From Thermoplasmata archaeon (GTDB lineage Archaea > Thermoplasmatota > Thermoplasmata > Lutacidiplasmatales > UBA184): a DNA stretch of 53,409 nucleotides. The translations under genes and the position numbers were made by a program. Where the stretch lies: assembly GCA_030038655.1 (NCBI GenBank), contig JASHSP010000042.1:1-53409 (forward strand). The letters are read 5' to 3'. The notes under the pieces were generated by a model. It was given only the letters and a program-made list of their open reading frames with translations. It was not told the origin of the DNA and did no database searches. Each line of letters opens with the position of its first letter. Position 1 is the first letter of the stretch. This document shows positions 4,121 to 14,925 of the stretch, in pieces.

Positions 4121-6097
4121 GTGGTCGCGTCCCGCCGGCTCGCCGCCATCATGTTCACCGACCTGGTGGGATTCACCCGGCTCGGCCAGGAGGACGAGAA
4201 TGCCGCGCTCCTCCTCCGACGGGAGCACCAAGCGCTGCTGCGCCCGATCTTCGCCGCCTTCGGTGGGCGCGAGGTGAAGACACTCGGCGACGGATTCCTG
4301 GTGGAGTTCGCGAGCGCGGTCGAGTCGGTCCGATGCGCTGTTGAGATCCAGCGGGCCATCGCCGCGCGAAACTCCGCACGCGGCCCGGAGGACCCGCTGT
4401 TGCTGCGCATCGGCCTCCACGCCGGGGACGTCGTCGAGGAGGACGGTGATGTCGTGGGCGACGCGGTGAACGTGGCTTCCCGGATCGAGCCGCTGGCAGA
4501 TCCGGGAGGCGTGTGTCTCTCCGCGACCGTCTACCAGCAGGTGAGGAACAAGCTTCCGATGGTCTTCGAGCACGTCGGGGCGCGAATCCTGAAGAACGTC
4601 CGGGAACCGGTCGAGATCTACCGGGTCGCGCTCGAAGGGCGGAGACCGACCCCTCCCCCGGCGGTGGACCATGCCCCGGAGCCCGTTCGCCTGGCGGTCT
4701 TGCCGCTGGCGAACCTGAGCACCGACCCCGACGACGTGTACTTCGCGGACGGACTGACCGACGAGCTGATCACGAGGACGTCACAGGTGCCCCAGGTCCG
4801 GGTGATTGCCCGCACCTCCGTCCAACGCTACAAGGGCTCTCCGAAGTCGATCCGGGAGGTGGGGGAAGAGCTCGGGGTCGGTGTCGCGCTCGAAGGGAGC
4901 GTGCGCAAATCGGGCCGTCAGGTTCGGATCTCGGTGCAGCTGATCGACGTCCGTTCGGAAGCGCATGTGTGGTCGATGCGGTACGACCGGCCCCTCGACG
5001 ACATCTTCGCGATTCAGGACGACATCGCCGGGCACATCGCGGGGTCCGTCGCGGCCCACCTGACCGGCCAGGCCCCGACAGGGGCACTGCCGCCCGTGCC
5101 CGGTGGCTCGGAGACATCCGACATGGAAGCGTACTCGCTGTTCCTTCACGGCCGCCAGCTCTTCGGGGAGAAGGGCTCGATCGAGGCGATTCGAACCGCT
5201 CTCTCCCTCTTCGAAGCCGCCGCCGTACGGGATCCCGGGTTCGCCCGCGCGCACGTCCTGATCGCCGAGACGCTACTTTGGCTCGCGACGGAGGGCGCCG
5301 TCGCGTTCCAAGAGGCCGAGGCGCGGGCGGAAGACGAACTTCGGCGGGCTCTCCGGCTGAACGACCGGATCGCGGAGGCCCATTCGGTCCAGGCGGCCCT
5401 CTACCTGGGATCGGACCGGTTTGACGAGTGTGAGAGGGAGGCCCGTCGAGCGATGGAACTGAACCCAAGCCTCGCGGACCCGTACCGGTGGCTCGCGCAG
5501 CTCGAGGCGGGAACCGGTCGCATCCACGAGGCGGTCGGCCTTCTCGAGGCCGCACGACTTCTGAACCCCGACGACGTCAACGTCCTGTCGTTCCTGGGGC
5601 GCGCCCTGGCATACGCCGGCCGGGAGGCCGACGCGGTCGCCTTCTGGGAGGCGTCGAAGTCGCGCATTCGCTATCGGACGAATGCGCACATGAGCGAGTT
5701 CTACCTCGGGAAGGGTGACCTCGCAAGGGCGGAGACGTCGGTCCAGGAGCTGGAGCGCGTTCGCCCCAACAGCCCCTGGACGTACGTCTACCGCGGGGAA
5801 CTCGAGGTGCGCAAGGGGAACCCGCAGATGGCCCGCCGCCTCATCGAGCAGCTCCGAGAGCGGCAGAAGCGCGGGGAGATGGTGGTGTTCTTCATCGGCT
5901 TTCTGGAGTACGCTCTGGGCGAGATGGACGAATTCGTCGAGTCCATGGAAGAGGCCCTTCGGTGCCGGGTGTTGCCCCTCCTGGAGCTGCTCTACTCGCC
6001 CCTCTACGCGGCCGCGCGGGCGGATCCCCGCATCCAGGACATCCTTCGCCGCCAGCGAGAAACCCAGAGTCGGCGGGCACCGGGCGGACCGGGATAG
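4121..6097 (+). CDS. Class III adenylate cyclase with TolB-like domain and TPR repeats
   Basis: A 658-residue multidomain protein. Residues 1-165 are a class III cyclase catalytic domain: the metal Asp14 (AIMFTDLVGF) and Asp57 (KTLGDGF), the adenine-selecting Lys53 and the Asp of DGDVVG, and the transition-state Asn and Arg of VNVASRIE are all present. Residues 185-300 form a TolB N-terminal-like domain (LAVLPLANLSTDPDDVYFADGLTDELI). The rest (about 320-650) is helical TPR repeats, for example EREARRAMELNPSLADPYRWLAQL. There is no transmembrane segment, so it is cytosolic. It should make cAMP from ATP. The GTG at 4121 is preceded by a TATA-like GCTTAATCC centred 27 bases upstream. A 649-residue paralogue lies at 12957-14906. 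Confidence 0.9.
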   Translation: MVASRRLAAIMFTDLVGFTRLGQEDENAALLLRREHQALLRPIFAAFGGREVKTLGDGFLVEFASAVESVRCAVEIQRAIAARNSARGPEDPLLLRIGLHAGDVVEEDGDVVGDAVNVASRIEPLADPGGVCLSATVYQQVRNKLPMVFEHVGARILKNVREPVEIYRVALEGRRPTPPPAVDHAPEPVRLAVLPLANLSTDPDDVYFADGLTDELITRTSQVPQVRVIARTSVQRYKGSPKSIREVGEELGVGVALEGSVRKSGRQVRISVQLIDVRSEAHVWSMRYDRPLDDIFAIQDDIAGHIAGSVAAHLTGQAPTGALPPVPGGSETSDMEAYSLFLHGRQLFGEKGSIEAIRTALSLFEAAAVRDPGFARAHVLIAETLLWLATEGAVAFQEAEARAEDELRRALRLNDRIAEAHSVQAALYLGSDRFDECEREARRAMELNPSLADPYRWLAQLEAGTGRIHEAVGLLEAARLLNPDDVNVLSFLGRALAYAGREADAVAFWEASKSRIRYRTNAHMSEFYLGKGDLARAETSVQELERVRPNSPWTYVYRGELEVRKGNPQMARRLIEQLRERQKRGEMVVFFIGFLEYALGEMDEFVESMEEALRCRVLPLLELLYSPLYAAARADPRIQDILRRQRETQSRRAPGGPG

Positions 6098-8469: not shown

Positions 8470-9474
8470 TTGAGCACGTACCCTGCAGCTCCGCAGATTG
8501 CTGGCCCCGCTCCGAACTCTTCGAGATCAATCGCACCATCATCTGGCGCTTTCAGCTCGGGTCGATTCGTTTCCGCCACTCTTGCGCTGGTCGCCGGGGT
8601 TCTCGGAGGAGTATCCACCGCTGTGGCCTGGTGGTCCGATTCCTTCCCCTCGAGCATCGTCTACTTTCTCCCGGGGGGTTCACTGACCGGCTCGGGTAGC
8701 AGCGGTACCGCCACCGCTACGTATGCGTCAGTGGGGTTTGGCCCGGTCGGTGCGCTCTACGAATCAGTACTCGCGATGGCTCTCGCCGTCACGGTCCTCA
8801 CGCTCATCGGAGGATCCGTCGGAGTCGTCGCCGCGTGGGGTAAGATCCGGAATCCCAGGGGGAAGGGAATGTTGCGCGGCCTGATCATCTCGGGTCTGGT
8901 GGTCGCCCTTGCCTCGCTCATCATCGTGCCGCCACTCCAACCGTACACCTTGTCCCAGTCCTCCGGTGGGTGTTCGGGGTATGGGTCCGAGTCACCCTGC
9001 AACTCGTTCTGGGGGGCGGGTGCCACGGGCGGTGTCAGTTCCTCGTGGGGTGCGAATCTGGGGTTCTATCTCATGGCCGCCGCCGCGATTCTCCTCGTCG
9101 TTTCCCTCCTGTTCTGGATCCGCGCCTGGTCCTCACCGTGGGGAAGTTCGCCCGAAGGATCGGTCGGGATTGCGGCCCAACCGCTCGCCCCCGGGGGGAG
9201 TACGCCAGAGTCAGCGGTGCCGGGGCCCGACCCGATCGAACGGCTGCTGCAGCTCAAGCAGCTCTTGGACTCCGGGCGTATCACAGAAGCGGAGTTTCAG
9301 CAGGCCAAATCGGGGCTGTTTACCAAATCTCCCACCGCGCAGCCGCAGCTCGGGAGCGGTCCACCAACGGGTGTTGAGGAGTCCTTAGCCCGATTAAGGG
9401 CCATGCGTGACTCGGGCCAGCTGAGCGAGGCAGAATACGCCGAGCTCCGCGCCCGGGTCCTCGCGCGGCTATGA
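8470..9474 (+). CDS. Multi-pass membrane protein with two C-terminal SHOCT domains
   Basis: A 334-residue protein with a Ser/Pro-rich N-terminus, about four transmembrane helices (ATLALVAGVLGGVSTAVAWW; LAMALAVTVLTLIGGSVGVVAAW; LRGLIISGLVVALASLIIVP; LGFYLMAAAAILLVVSLLFWI), a Ser/Gly-rich loop with Cys residues, and two SHOCT modules: RLLQLKQLLDSGRITEAEFQQAK and SLARLRAMRDSGQLSEAEYAELR. SHOCT domains are short oligomerisation modules. The TTG start at 8470 is the only good in-frame start at the right place. It follows the zinc-ribbon membrane gene on the same strand. Confidence 0.8.
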   Translation: MSTYPAAPQIAGPAPNSSRSIAPSSGAFSSGRFVSATLALVAGVLGGVSTAVAWWSDSFPSSIVYFLPGGSLTGSGSSGTATATYASVGFGPVGALYESVLAMALAVTVLTLIGGSVGVVAAWGKIRNPRGKGMLRGLIISGLVVALASLIIVPPLQPYTLSQSSGGCSGYGSESPCNSFWGAGATGGVSSSWGANLGFYLMAAAAILLVVSLLFWIRAWSSPWGSSPEGSVGIAAQPLAPGGSTPESAVPGPDPIERLLQLKQLLDSGRITEAEFQQAKSGLFTKSPTAQPQLGSGPPTGVEESLARLRAMRDSGQLSEAEYAELRARVLARL

Positions 9475-9817
9475 TCCGGGCGGAGTAGCACCTCGTCTCC
9501 GGCCTTCCGGGCTGGGTTCGGTGAGAATCGAACGCCACGGGTCCCTGCGACCCGCGCCCGACCGAGTTTGAACGGGAACCGACGACGGCTCCAACGAGAG
9601 ACGAGTCGATCGGCGTTACTCTGAGATTGGGGACGGGCTGTGGGAGTGGTGGGAGACAAGGCCGCGAGAAAAACTCCGCAGCAGGGTCACCGTTCGGGTC
9701 CCGGCCAAGACCTACCGCGAGGCGGAGCCCGAGGAGATGGGTGTGCTCCCCCCTTGCTGTAGGTGGAAACGGGGGGCTAGCCCGGTCCTCGACGGTTGTG
9801 GACCCTCAACGACCGCA
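9475..9817. other. Intergenic region without a recognisable gene
   Basis: This gap of about 340 bases separates the SHOCT gene from the nucleotidyltransferase operon promoter. I see no coding frame with family features, no tRNA and no repeat. G+C remains high until the abrupt A/T stretch at 9818. Confidence 0.5.
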
Positions 9818-9837
9818 ATATAATATTTATATTTAAT
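9818..9837 (+). promoter_or_regulatory. Very A/T-rich promoter of the nucleotidyltransferase operon
   Basis: The stretch ATATAATATTTATATTTAAT is pure A/T in an otherwise very G+C-rich sequence. It is centred about 28 bases before the ATG at 9856, the expected position for an archaeal TATA box and leaderless start. Its length, well over a normal TATA box, leaves room for a minor-groove (AT-hook) regulator. Confidence 0.75.
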
Positions 9838-9855
9838 AGGAACATTACTGGTACG

Positions 9856-10422
9856 ATGCGAGTCGAAGCGGGCTTGTTCCGAGAAACGGGAGAGCGCCCG
9901 CTCCCTCGGGAAATGCTCTCCAGGTGGCCGCGAGTACGGGGGCGTCCCAGGAAGGAGTATCGGCCTCGAATACGGTCGGCGGGAGACGTCGACCGGCTTC
10001 GGCGCCACCATGTTCCCGCCCTGCTGATCACTCCTGAGTGGGTTACGAGCTCGGGCTACCCCGTACATTTCCGCCCGTGGCTGGCGCTGCCCGAACAACT
10101 ATCGATCAAGGTCTCGTCGGATTTCCGAGTCCTTCCCGTGAAGGATGCCGAGGCTCTCCGGGATCCCGGAGTCGAGGAGCTCGTGGCCCTGCTGCTTCGA
10201 TTCGATCCTTTGGCAGCGCGAGTGGTCGCCTCCCGAAACCGGACGAAGCTCAACCCGAACGAGCTTTACCGACGGATCCGGAACGAAGGTCTCGATCGGG
10301 CTGCGACCAAGGTCCGGCTCCAGGACTTCGCCCGGTCGCTCCCGGTCGTCGGGGCGTCGTTACCGCGTGAGGAGCTTCTCTGGGTCGAACGAAACAATCC
10401 GCCTGTCGCGGAGATGCCGTGA
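9856..10422 (+). CDS. Putative antitoxin/partner protein with AT-hook-like motif
   Basis: A 188-residue protein not assigned to a family. Near its N-terminus it has RVRGRPRKEYRPR (about 26-38), a close match to the AT-hook core RGRP flanked by basic residues. The remainder is mixed helix and strand, with the helical segment VEELVALLLRFDPLAARVVASR. The ATG at 9856 was chosen because the A/T-rich promoter ends just before it; the track start at 9796 lies upstream of the TATA element. Its stop overlaps the next start as GTGA, so the two are translationally coupled. This gene order, with a putative DNA binder first and a nucleotidyltransferase second, resembles type IV AbiE-like pairs, but homology to AbiEi is not shown. 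Confidence 0.6.
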   Translation: MRVEAGLFRETGERPLPREMLSRWPRVRGRPRKEYRPRIRSAGDVDRLRRHHVPALLITPEWVTSSGYPVHFRPWLALPEQLSIKVSSDFRVLPVKDAEALRDPGVEELVALLLRFDPLAARVVASRNRTKLNPNELYRRIRNEGLDRAATKVRLQDFARSLPVVGASLPREELLWVERNNPPVAEMP

Positions 10423-10997
10423 CCGAACCGGGAGTCGCGGCAGCCCGCGACATCCTTCGGCGGCGGGGTATCCTTTTCGTCGTGATCGGGGGCCAGGCGG
10501 TCGCACGGGAGGCGGCGACCAGCACGCGCGATGTCGACGTGATGGTGGCGACCGACTCGTTCGGCAGGACGGTCGCACTCCTCCGAGAGGAGAAGGACCT
10601 CGCATTCGACTGGGAGACCGAACAACTTGCCCGTTTCCGGATACTTCCCCTCGGAGGCGTTCCGTTCGATGTGATCAACGCTGCCACCTTTTCCGGGGCG
10701 AGGCCCGGTGACGAATTCTTCCACTTTCTCGCTCGAGAGAGCTCGACGGGAGAGGACGGGATCGCGTACGCATCCCCCGAGGCGGTGTGGTATACGCGAC
10801 TGATGACCAAGCGTTGGAGGGCGTACGCCGAGAAGATCGTCACGAACGTGATCGATGGCGTCGCCCCCCACCGGCTGACTGGGGTCGAAGAGATCGCGCG
10901 ACTCTTCGGAACCGAGGCTACGATCCGGACGCGTCTCGCCTACGTGAGAGAGGAGCTGGCGAGACCGGACGTCGGGCCGCTCCTCCGCCGCCCGTAG
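10419..10997 (+). CDS. Nucleotidyltransferase-fold protein (AbiEii/MNT-like)
   Basis: A 192-residue protein with the Pol-beta nucleotidyltransferase signature: VVIGGQAVAREAATSTRDVDVMV places Gly24-Gly25 and Asp38/Asp40, and VPFDVI (Asp84) gives the third carboxylate. The pattern fits small nucleotidyltransferases of toxin-antitoxin and antiphage systems (AbiEii, MNT-HEPN and DUF6036-like groups). The helical C-terminus includes RLTGVEEIARLFGTEATIRTRLAYV. The GTG at 10419 overlaps the preceding gene by four bases. If active it would transfer an NMP to an RNA or protein target. The catalytic residues are all present, so it is not obviously dead. Confidence 0.8.
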   Translation: MTEPGVAAARDILRRRGILFVVIGGQAVAREAATSTRDVDVMVATDSFGRTVALLREEKDLAFDWETEQLARFRILPLGGVPFDVINAATFSGARPGDEFFHFLARESSTGEDGIAYASPEAVWYTRLMTKRWRAYAEKIVTNVIDGVAPHRLTGVEEIARLFGTEATIRTRLAYVREELARPDVGPLLRRP

Positions 10998-12956: not shown

Positions 12957-14906
12957 TCACGAAGAGCGCGGAAGGGCCAGGCCCACGGATTCCAGGAGCG
13001 ACCTGAGACGGGGATCTTTTCGAACTTCGGCGAAGAGAGGCGAGTACATCAGTTGGGGCGCGGGGAGTCTGTGGTCCTTCGCTGCGGCCGACATGTGCTC
13101 GAAGAATCTGTCCGCCTCCCCGAGCGCCAGATAGACGAAGCCTGCTCGAGTCGCCCCCACCCCGCCGGATTGTTGGGGGGAATCCAACTTTGCGATCATC
13201 CGCATCGCCGCGGACCGGTCACCCTTGAGGGCGGCGAGGTACCCCAGATACAGGTAGGTGTCGAGATCGGTAGGGCTAAGCCTCTCAACCTCGCTCACCA
13301 TCTCGCCGGCCTTCTGCAAGTCCCCCTTCGCGAAGTAGTAATCGGCCATCCGGCGGTACGTGTTGGAGGGATCCAAGTGGAGCGTCCGCTTCCAATGCTC
13401 CAGGGCTTCCGCATCCCTCCCCGCGTAAAAGTACGCGGCCCCGAGAATCCGGATCGTGCGGGGGGAAAGGGGGTCCAGCTGGTAGGCCATCTCGCTCTGA
13501 CGGACCAATTCTCCCAAGTTCCCCTTCAAGGACTCGATACTCCCCAGCACGATGTGTACGTCCGCGAGGTTGGGGTTCAGTTCCAGCGCCTCCCTCGCCT
13601 CCTTCTCTTGCATCTCGAGTGGGTCGTCCGCCATGGCGGACAGCTCGGCAAGCACGGCATGCGCTTCGGCGAGGTCGGGAGCCAGGGTGCGGGCCCTCTC
13701 TGCGGCGGCCCGACCGTGTTCGATGGCTTCCGGCCAAGGTATCAAGCCTCGGAATCCCAGATTCCGATAGCAGATCGCTAGGCCGGCGAGCGCCCGGGAA
13801 AAGGAAGGGTCCTTCGCAACGGCGTGCTCGAAGAGTCTCAGCGATTGCCGTAGCGCCTGCTCTTCTCGGCGCCAGAGGAGCGCGCTCCCCTGAAGGAAGT
13901 ACAGGTAGGCCTCGGTGTCCTCGGTCCCTCTCGGACGTGCGACCGGAGCGGCCGCCGCCAGCAGTTCGCTCGGAAGCGACTCGGTGACCTTGGCCGCGAT
14001 CGCGCTCTGGACCGCAAAAATGTCGTCCAAGGTGTCATCGTAGGTCGATGCCGACAGATGCGCCTCGGAAGCGACGTCGATCACTTGGACCGTGACCCGG
14101 ATCCGGTTCCCGACCTTCCGGACGCTCCCCTCGACGGCCGTCCCGACCCCGAGCTCTCGACCGATTTCGGAGACGTGCTTCTTGCCCCCCTTGTAGGCCA
14201 TTACGGAGGTCCGCGCGATGACTTGGAGCCCCTTCACTAGCGAGAGGCTCCCGATCAATTCCTCGGTGAGTCCGTCGGAGAAGTATTCGTCATTCGGGTC
14301 CGGACTCATGCTCACGAACGGGAGGACGGCGACACGGTTCCTATCCAGGGGGATCGAAGCGCGGCCGGTGGAAGGGAGTTCCCGCGGGGTCCGAGTCAGC
14401 AGGAGCCGGTAGACATCGACCGGGAACAGCACGCCCTTGAGTGCTCTCGGTTCCAGCTTCTCCAGTCGGTTTCTGATCTTGTTCCGGACAAGGCCGAACA
14501 CCGGCTCGGAGATGCAGATTCCTCCCGGATCCGCGAGCGGTTCGATCCGGGACGCGACGTTGACGGAGTCTCCAAAGACGTCTCCGGCCCGCTCCTCGAT
14601 GTCCCCGAGGTGGACACCGATTCGGATCCGGATGGGCTCGCTCTCCGGTTGCGAGTTGCGGGCGAGCAGACGTTCCTGGACCTCGATCGCGCATTCCACG
14701 GCCCGCAGGGCGCTGTCGAACACGACCAGGAAACCGTCGCCGGTCGACTTGATCTCGCGACCCTGGTGGGAGGAGAAGAGCGGTCGGACGATCGCCTCCT
14801 GCTCGTCCCGCAGCCGGAGTGCGTTCGCTTCGTCGACCTGAGCGGCGGCCGTCGAACCGACCGTGTCCGTGAACATGATGGCGGCGAGCCGACGTGTCGA
14901 GGCCAC
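12957..14906 (-). CDS. Second class III adenylate cyclase-TolB-like-TPR protein
   Basis: A 649-residue paralogue of the 4121-6097 protein with the same order of domains. The cyclase domain has AAIMFTDTVGST (first metal Asp), REIKSTGDGFLVVF (specificity Lys and second Asp), GDVFG (specificity Asp) and VNVASRIE (Asn, Arg). The TolB-like domain reads VAVLPFVSMSPDPNDEYFSDGLTEELI, and TPR repeats fill the rest (for example LVRQSEMAYQLDPLSPRTIRILGAAYFYAGRDAEALEHW). The GTG at 14906 (MASTRRLAAIMF) aligns with the paralogue's start and has a TATA element 25 bases upstream; the track ATG at 14921 would lie too close to that element. It is predicted to make cAMP. Both copies seem catalytically intact. 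Confidence 0.9.
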   Translation of the reverse strand: MASTRRLAAIMFTDTVGSTAAAQVDEANALRLRDEQEAIVRPLFSSHQGREIKSTGDGFLVVFDSALRAVECAIEVQERLLARNSQPESEPIRIRIGVHLGDIEERAGDVFGDSVNVASRIEPLADPGGICISEPVFGLVRNKIRNRLEKLEPRALKGVLFPVDVYRLLLTRTPRELPSTGRASIPLDRNRVAVLPFVSMSPDPNDEYFSDGLTEELIGSLSLVKGLQVIARTSVMAYKGGKKHVSEIGRELGVGTAVEGSVRKVGNRIRVTVQVIDVASEAHLSASTYDDTLDDIFAVQSAIAAKVTESLPSELLAAAAPVARPRGTEDTEAYLYFLQGSALLWRREEQALRQSLRLFEHAVAKDPSFSRALAGLAICYRNLGFRGLIPWPEAIEHGRAAAERARTLAPDLAEAHAVLAELSAMADDPLEMQEKEAREALELNPNLADVHIVLGSIESLKGNLGELVRQSEMAYQLDPLSPRTIRILGAAYFYAGRDAEALEHWKRTLHLDPSNTYRRMADYYFAKGDLQKAGEMVSEVERLSPTDLDTYLYLGYLAALKGDRSAAMRMIAKLDSPQQSGGVGATRAGFVYLALGEADRFFEHMSAAAKDHRLPAPQLMYSPLFAEVRKDPRLRSLLESVGLALPRSS

Positions 14907-14925
14907 ATCCCAAAATCGCATCGCT

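Follow-up and report, generated by a model that had tools for sequence, protein, structure and literature searches.

A conserved gene pair of soil Thermoplasmata as a predicted nucleotidyltransferase toxin-antitoxin module with an operator-like promoter element

The stretch of DNA analyzed in this work (hereafter the window; 53,409 nt) belongs to the 1.5-Mb genome of an uncultured soil archaeon and carries two overlapping genes, designated A and B, which constitute a real two-gene module. With a probability of roughly 0.7, we interpret this module as a self-regulating toxin-antitoxin system of the nucleotidyltransferase (AbiE/MenAT-like) kind. Very probably, the pair combines a predicted MenT1-like toxin with a predicted AbiEi-like antitoxin that lacks a wHTH domain and bears a basic arm, both being governed by a module-specific palindromic TATA operator. 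An earlier note, made from the sequence alone, had put the pair forward as a toxin-antitoxin candidate, and the proposal gained substance in that the two genes proved to be a conserved module with the hallmarks of such systems. For the antiphage role that the note named as an alternative, the analysis yielded neither direct support nor a counterargument. The features considered below are located in the window as follows.

9817-9838, no strand assigned: 22-nt run of pure A/T, the sole run over 9 nt in the window
9820-9835, + strand: palindrome-like candidate promoter/operator element ATAATATTTATATTTA, conserved upstream of A in 41 copies
9856-10422, + strand: gene A, proposed antitoxin (ATG start, 188 aa)
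9937-9954, + strand: RGRPRK, AT-hook-like core, residues 28-33 of A (GRP in 31 of 47 relatives)
10419-10997, + strand: gene B, proposed nucleotidyltransferase toxin (GTG start, 192 aa)
10488-10493, + strand: G24-G25 of the Pol-beta nucleotidyltransferase site of B, invariant in the alignment
10524-10538, + strand: T36-R-D38-V-D40 of B with the catalytic Asp pair, located by alignment
10668-10670, + strand: D84 of B, probably the third catalytic carboxylate, with Glu in its place in some distant copies

Conservation of the gene pair

The end of A and the start of B share the GTGA overlap described earlier, and an overlap of 4 nt recurs in 35 of the 41 pairs scored. Gene A gave about 49 strong matches across 103 genomes of the family, with B alongside, while the profiles of A and B detected the same 30 of the 350 genomes of the class Thermoplasmata, the copy numbers of the two agreeing in nearly all of these 30 genomes. 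The distribution is patchy: the module is present in part of the genus only, occurs once in the genome of the window and reaches a maximum of three diverged pairs in one genome. At the copies checked, B or its edge-cut remnant adjoined A, and the few loci where A had no obvious adjoining B were all contig ends or contained a very diverged B. Adjacent A/B pairs also occur beyond the family, in two further families of the class (one with low G+C), while a sample taken from the remainder of the phylum gave none. A synteny survey, which the earlier note had suggested as a check, thus found the two genes kept together, and since dozens of genomes retain both proteins together, A and B are not a chance pair of open reading frames. 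The distances between A proteins and those between their B partners were strongly correlated in a mirror-tree comparison (r = 0.94; maximum of 0.37 in 2000 Mantel permutations).

Among the 25 loci compared, only A and B were widely common and the flanks differed, except for a family of class III adenylate/guanylate cyclase-TPR proteins. Genes of this family, which is multi-copy in these archaea, lie on both sides of the module in the window (4121-6097, + strand; 12957-14921, - strand), and related ones (38-43% identity) occur near the module at five other loci. No defence island surrounds the copy in the window, its neighbours being the cyclase-TPR proteins, a glyoxalase, a SHOCT protein and an aldo/keto reductase, and no tRNA insertion site was found within the window. 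The gene at 8470-9474 (+ strand) codes for a protein predicted to be of membrane type, whose C-terminus holds two SHOCT repeats that also match the gas vesicle protein GvpG. The named relatives are Thermoplasmata MAGs; several, SubAcS15-120 and AcS4-93 among them, have been described as Ca. Lutacidiplasmatales of acidic soils under forest and grassland (PMC9287336).

The promoter element and the basic arm of A

The stretch of pure A/T noticed earlier upstream of A is real, its length being 22 nt and not 20. At 32% A+T, the expected number of runs of at least 20 such nucleotides in the window is about 5e-6, and the second-longest run is 9 nt. Within the stretch lies a 16-nt element, spanning -36 to -21 relative to the start of A and overlapping the expected TATA position; its family form is TWATATAWATAYTTA, and the most symmetric copies read TAAGTATATATACTTA. 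The palindromy of the element amounts to 5.15 of 8 pairs, as compared to 3.45 +/- 0.21 in shuffles, and could be partly due to the self-complementary TATATA core. All 54 matches to the element in the 292 kb scanned are located upstream of A. The strict pattern has one match in the entire 1.5-Mb genome, at 9820-9835, and occurs in 13 relatives at module promoters only; with one mismatch allowed, two further sites were found across six genomes devoid of the module. Although the pattern was derived from the module promoters, the finding that it is missing elsewhere in the genomes is independent of that derivation. The earlier view of the A/T stretch as the promoter of the pair is therefore upheld, in the form of a conserved and module-specific promoter element.

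The element lies about 20-36 nt ahead of the start codon, in the place expected for the TATA box of an archaeal transcript that has a short leader or none, and therefore a protein bound there would exclude TBP/TFB. The same position would also suit an ordinary archaeal TATA box, with the pair being perhaps a toxin-antitoxin system but its operon not regulated by A; we consider this unlikely, as the element is absent elsewhere in the flanks scanned, matches almost only module promoters in 14 genomes, and is palindrome-like, its conservation extending over three families of the class. At four loci a second copy of the A/T element is found 90-310 nt upstream of the first (L065:3669, L078:214, L080:5821, L083:5336), which suggests two operator sites there.

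A candidate for the operator-binding part is the N-terminus of A, residues 1-41 of which form a disordered basic arm, modelled with low confidence and almost free of structure, and contain no wHTH; the net charge of the first 42 residues is +8. The AT-hook proposed earlier for this region did not hold in that form: the RGRPRK core is there, while a conserved R-G-R-P is absent. R30 and P31 are invariant and R36 is nearly so, and GRP is replaced by HRP or YRP outside the 31 relatives mentioned above, for which reason the family cannot be defined by a classical AT-hook. Nevertheless, it is plausible that the arm reads its own promoter. The GRP-containing copies have longer pure A/T tracts (median 13 vs 8 nt, p 2e-7, raw counts), and a G/C pair at symmetric operator positions is found in 14 of the 16 non-GRP copies vs 5 of the 31 GRP copies (p 3e-6). 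GRP changes about four times on the tree, and the three independent contrasts available, too few for significance, point in the same direction or are neutral. Because of this number of contrasts, we treat the co-variation of arm and operator as a working hypothesis.

Protein B as the predicted toxin

The Pol-beta site recognized earlier in B is present (G24-G25, D38-V-D40 and D84). Its GG, D-x-D and the Ser/Thr two residues before the first Asp are conserved in the alignment of 41 copies, and the pattern GG.A...[ST].[DE].D was found in 44 of 47 copies, two of the three exceptions being decayed. The AlphaFold model of B is confident (mean pLDDT 91.7). In a Foldseek comparison with 350,542 PDB chains, MenT1 from the MenAT1 complex came first (E 1.5e-5, probability 1.00, TM 0.66), with ANT(2'')-Ia and other nucleotidyltransferases ranking behind, and a profile of 25 B members also gave MenT1 as its top PDB profile match (E 5e-4). 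The fold and profile searches recommended in the earlier note thus agreed on a Pol-beta nucleotidyltransferase with MenT1 on top, and the site features of the MenT type, that is the Pol-beta fold, GG, D-x-D and the preceding Ser/Thr, are all found in B.

Known families accommodate B less well. No Pfam family scored over the cut-off, AbiEii of Pfam being recognized in 0 of 25 members, and the AbiEii matches in PADLOC (E 0.0016 at best) and by hhalign (P 0.005 over 30 columns) were weak. Some members share weak profile matches with DUF6036, NTP_transf_5 and PDC-S09 (best E 0.0002 to 0.01), but these do not cover the partner A, and we know of no A-like partner for the three families.

The closest counterpart of B by fold is the toxin of MenAT1 (Rv0078B-Rv0078A) from Mycobacterium tuberculosis. 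The two proteins have the same fold, similar length (192 vs about 196 aa) and the D-x-D pair with Thr/Ser two residues earlier, whereas their identity is about 14%. Inactivation of the toxins by the antitoxin involves phosphorylation of T39 in MenT1 and of S78 in MenT3 (PMC11375011); Thr36 of B sits at the position of these phosphoacceptors and, by analogy, may play the same part. MenA1 is a helical protein of 68 aa without a DNA-binding domain, and the MenAT1 operon is not autoregulated (PMC10435456, PMC11375011), whereas A comprises 188 aa of mixed alpha/beta structure and is preceded by the operator-like element. Since the antitoxins differ, the pair cannot be filed as MenAT1.

The structural matches to ANT(2'')-Ia and LnuA, with probabilities of about 1.00, might also be taken to mean that the pair is no toxin-antitoxin system at all, B being a small-molecule (antibiotic-modifying) nucleotidyltransferase and A a DNA-binding repressor. 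This appears quite improbable: the E-values of both matches are more than 10-fold weaker than that of MenT1, and the strict co-occurrence, the multiple diverged copies, the coevolution and the decay of the active site with A being kept are better suited to a toxin-antitoxin system.

The decay concerns three copies of B, in genomes G078 (stops), G014 (in-frame TAG) and G120, where a deletion that keeps the frame has removed just the GG...DxD catalytic loop from the homologue (L143:2560-3081), the rest being intact. A is intact beside the decayed B in G078 and G120, its place in G014 being beyond the contig end, and no broken A was seen among the copies found in the family genomes. Such a pattern, although three decayed toxins are few, is what one would predict with B as the toxin and A as its antitoxin.

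Protein A and the proposed mode of action

No sequence relatives of A were detected in Pfam, NCBIfam, PADLOC, PHROGs or PDB sequences, nor in viral contigs or viral structures. A match to an unrelated enzyme family, named in the earlier note as an outcome that would speak against the proposal, was not obtained in the libraries searched. The core of A (residues 42-180) is well predicted. In the model it starts with a helix (42-50), continues with strands 56-58, 75-79, 87-88 and 91-95 interspersed with short helices, and is closed by six helices (99-102 to 171-179). The C-terminal domain of AbiEi, which is sufficient for antitoxicity in AbiE, comprises one helix, four strands and a six-helix bundle (PMC7319586), and the modelled core of A has the same order of elements. 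The AbiEi homologue of M. tuberculosis, Rv2827c, provides the top PDB fold matches of A with both of its chains, and AbiEi comes next (Foldseek, 1zel/6y8q), with scores that are weak and not significant (E 0.045-1.0, TM about 0.32). Twenty-five AbiEi proteins of the same phylum, compared profile to profile with A, gave no match, and no sequence-profile similarity to AbiEi_1 or AbiEi_2 was found, which rules out the assignment of A to either by sequence. Considering the weak fold scores and the empty profile-profile comparison, we regard the likeness of the modelled core to the AbiEi C-terminal domain as probable only. The earlier remark that the partner does not look like AbiEi thus holds for its sequence, while the predicted core does resemble the AbiEi C-terminal domain, with weak scores. 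A was also considered as a degenerate nucleotidyltransferase fold: the hhalign score between A and B (21.9) was high relative to 60 shuffles, but 19 of 400 shuffles reached it, and the idea was dropped.

In gene order (antitoxin first, nucleotidyltransferase toxin second, overlapping or abutting) the pair follows AbiE and MenAT3/MenAT4 (COG5340-DUF1814). AbiE is autoregulated through inverted repeats in its promoter, for which the conserved, module-specific palindrome-like element would be a candidate counterpart here. It differs from AbiE in that A has neither the N-terminal winged helix nor detectable AbiEi sequence similarity, B falls short of the length of most AbiEii toxins in the phylum by about 100 aa, and a single short A/T palindrome is the operator candidate where AbiE has paired 23-bp repeats. 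As both the DUF1814/AbiEii profile match and the winged helix are missing, the pair cannot be filed as AbiE either. Canonical AbiEi-AbiEii pairs are found separately at four loci in other genera of the same family, and hence both kinds coexist in the lineage. Among archaea, PygAT of Pyrococcus yayanosii (DUF2253 toxin) is described in PMC11375011 as a functional nucleotidyltransferase toxin-antitoxin system, to which A/B is likened here by that description only.

In HEPN-MNT (type VII) modules the nucleotidyltransferase is the antitoxin and modifies the partner toxin (PMC7641770). Reverse roles of this sort, with B modifying a toxic A, would fit a two-gene operon containing a nucleotidyltransferase, yet they are the least probable of the readings weighed here, given that A is of mixed alpha/beta structure in the model and not an all-helical HEPN, that it has neither a HEPN profile match nor a conserved His (HEPN motif R-x4-6-H), that B is closest to a toxin, and that the decayed partner is B, whereas a toxin kept without its antitoxin would be lethal.

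Under the toxin-antitoxin interpretation, A would be made first, and the translation of B would be coupled to it via the GTGA overlap. B, with its intact active site and a fold closest to MenT1, would act as the toxin, most likely blocking translation by adding nucleotides to tRNA ends, as judged only by analogy with the tRNA-modifying toxin MenT1. A would neutralize it as the antitoxin, through a core similar to the AbiEi C-terminal domain, the short basic arm taking the place of the winged helix. In addition, A or the A-B complex probably represses its own operon from the A/T palindrome that covers the TATA position, where its binding would exclude TBP/TFB. A further-reaching proposal, which we offer tentatively and with some doubt, is that of a new archaeal toxin-antitoxin family, in which an AbiEi-type antitoxicity domain that has lost, or never possessed, the winged helix is combined with a short disordered arm (RGRP/HRP) reading a palindromic TATA-box operator, the arm and the operator co-varying (GRP with pure A/T, HRP with a symmetric G/C pair).

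Pairs of this kind are missed by the standard libraries (Pfam, NCBIfam, PADLOC). If our interpretation is right, a profile-invisible antitoxin family would be added to the nucleotidyltransferase toxin-antitoxin systems, and a MenT1-like toxin would be found paired with an AbiEi-like antitoxin. The module would also be a compact example of an archaeal repressor site within a TATA box, and it would provide the Thermoplasmatota of soils (Lutacidiplasmatales) with a stress or defence system that can be tested.
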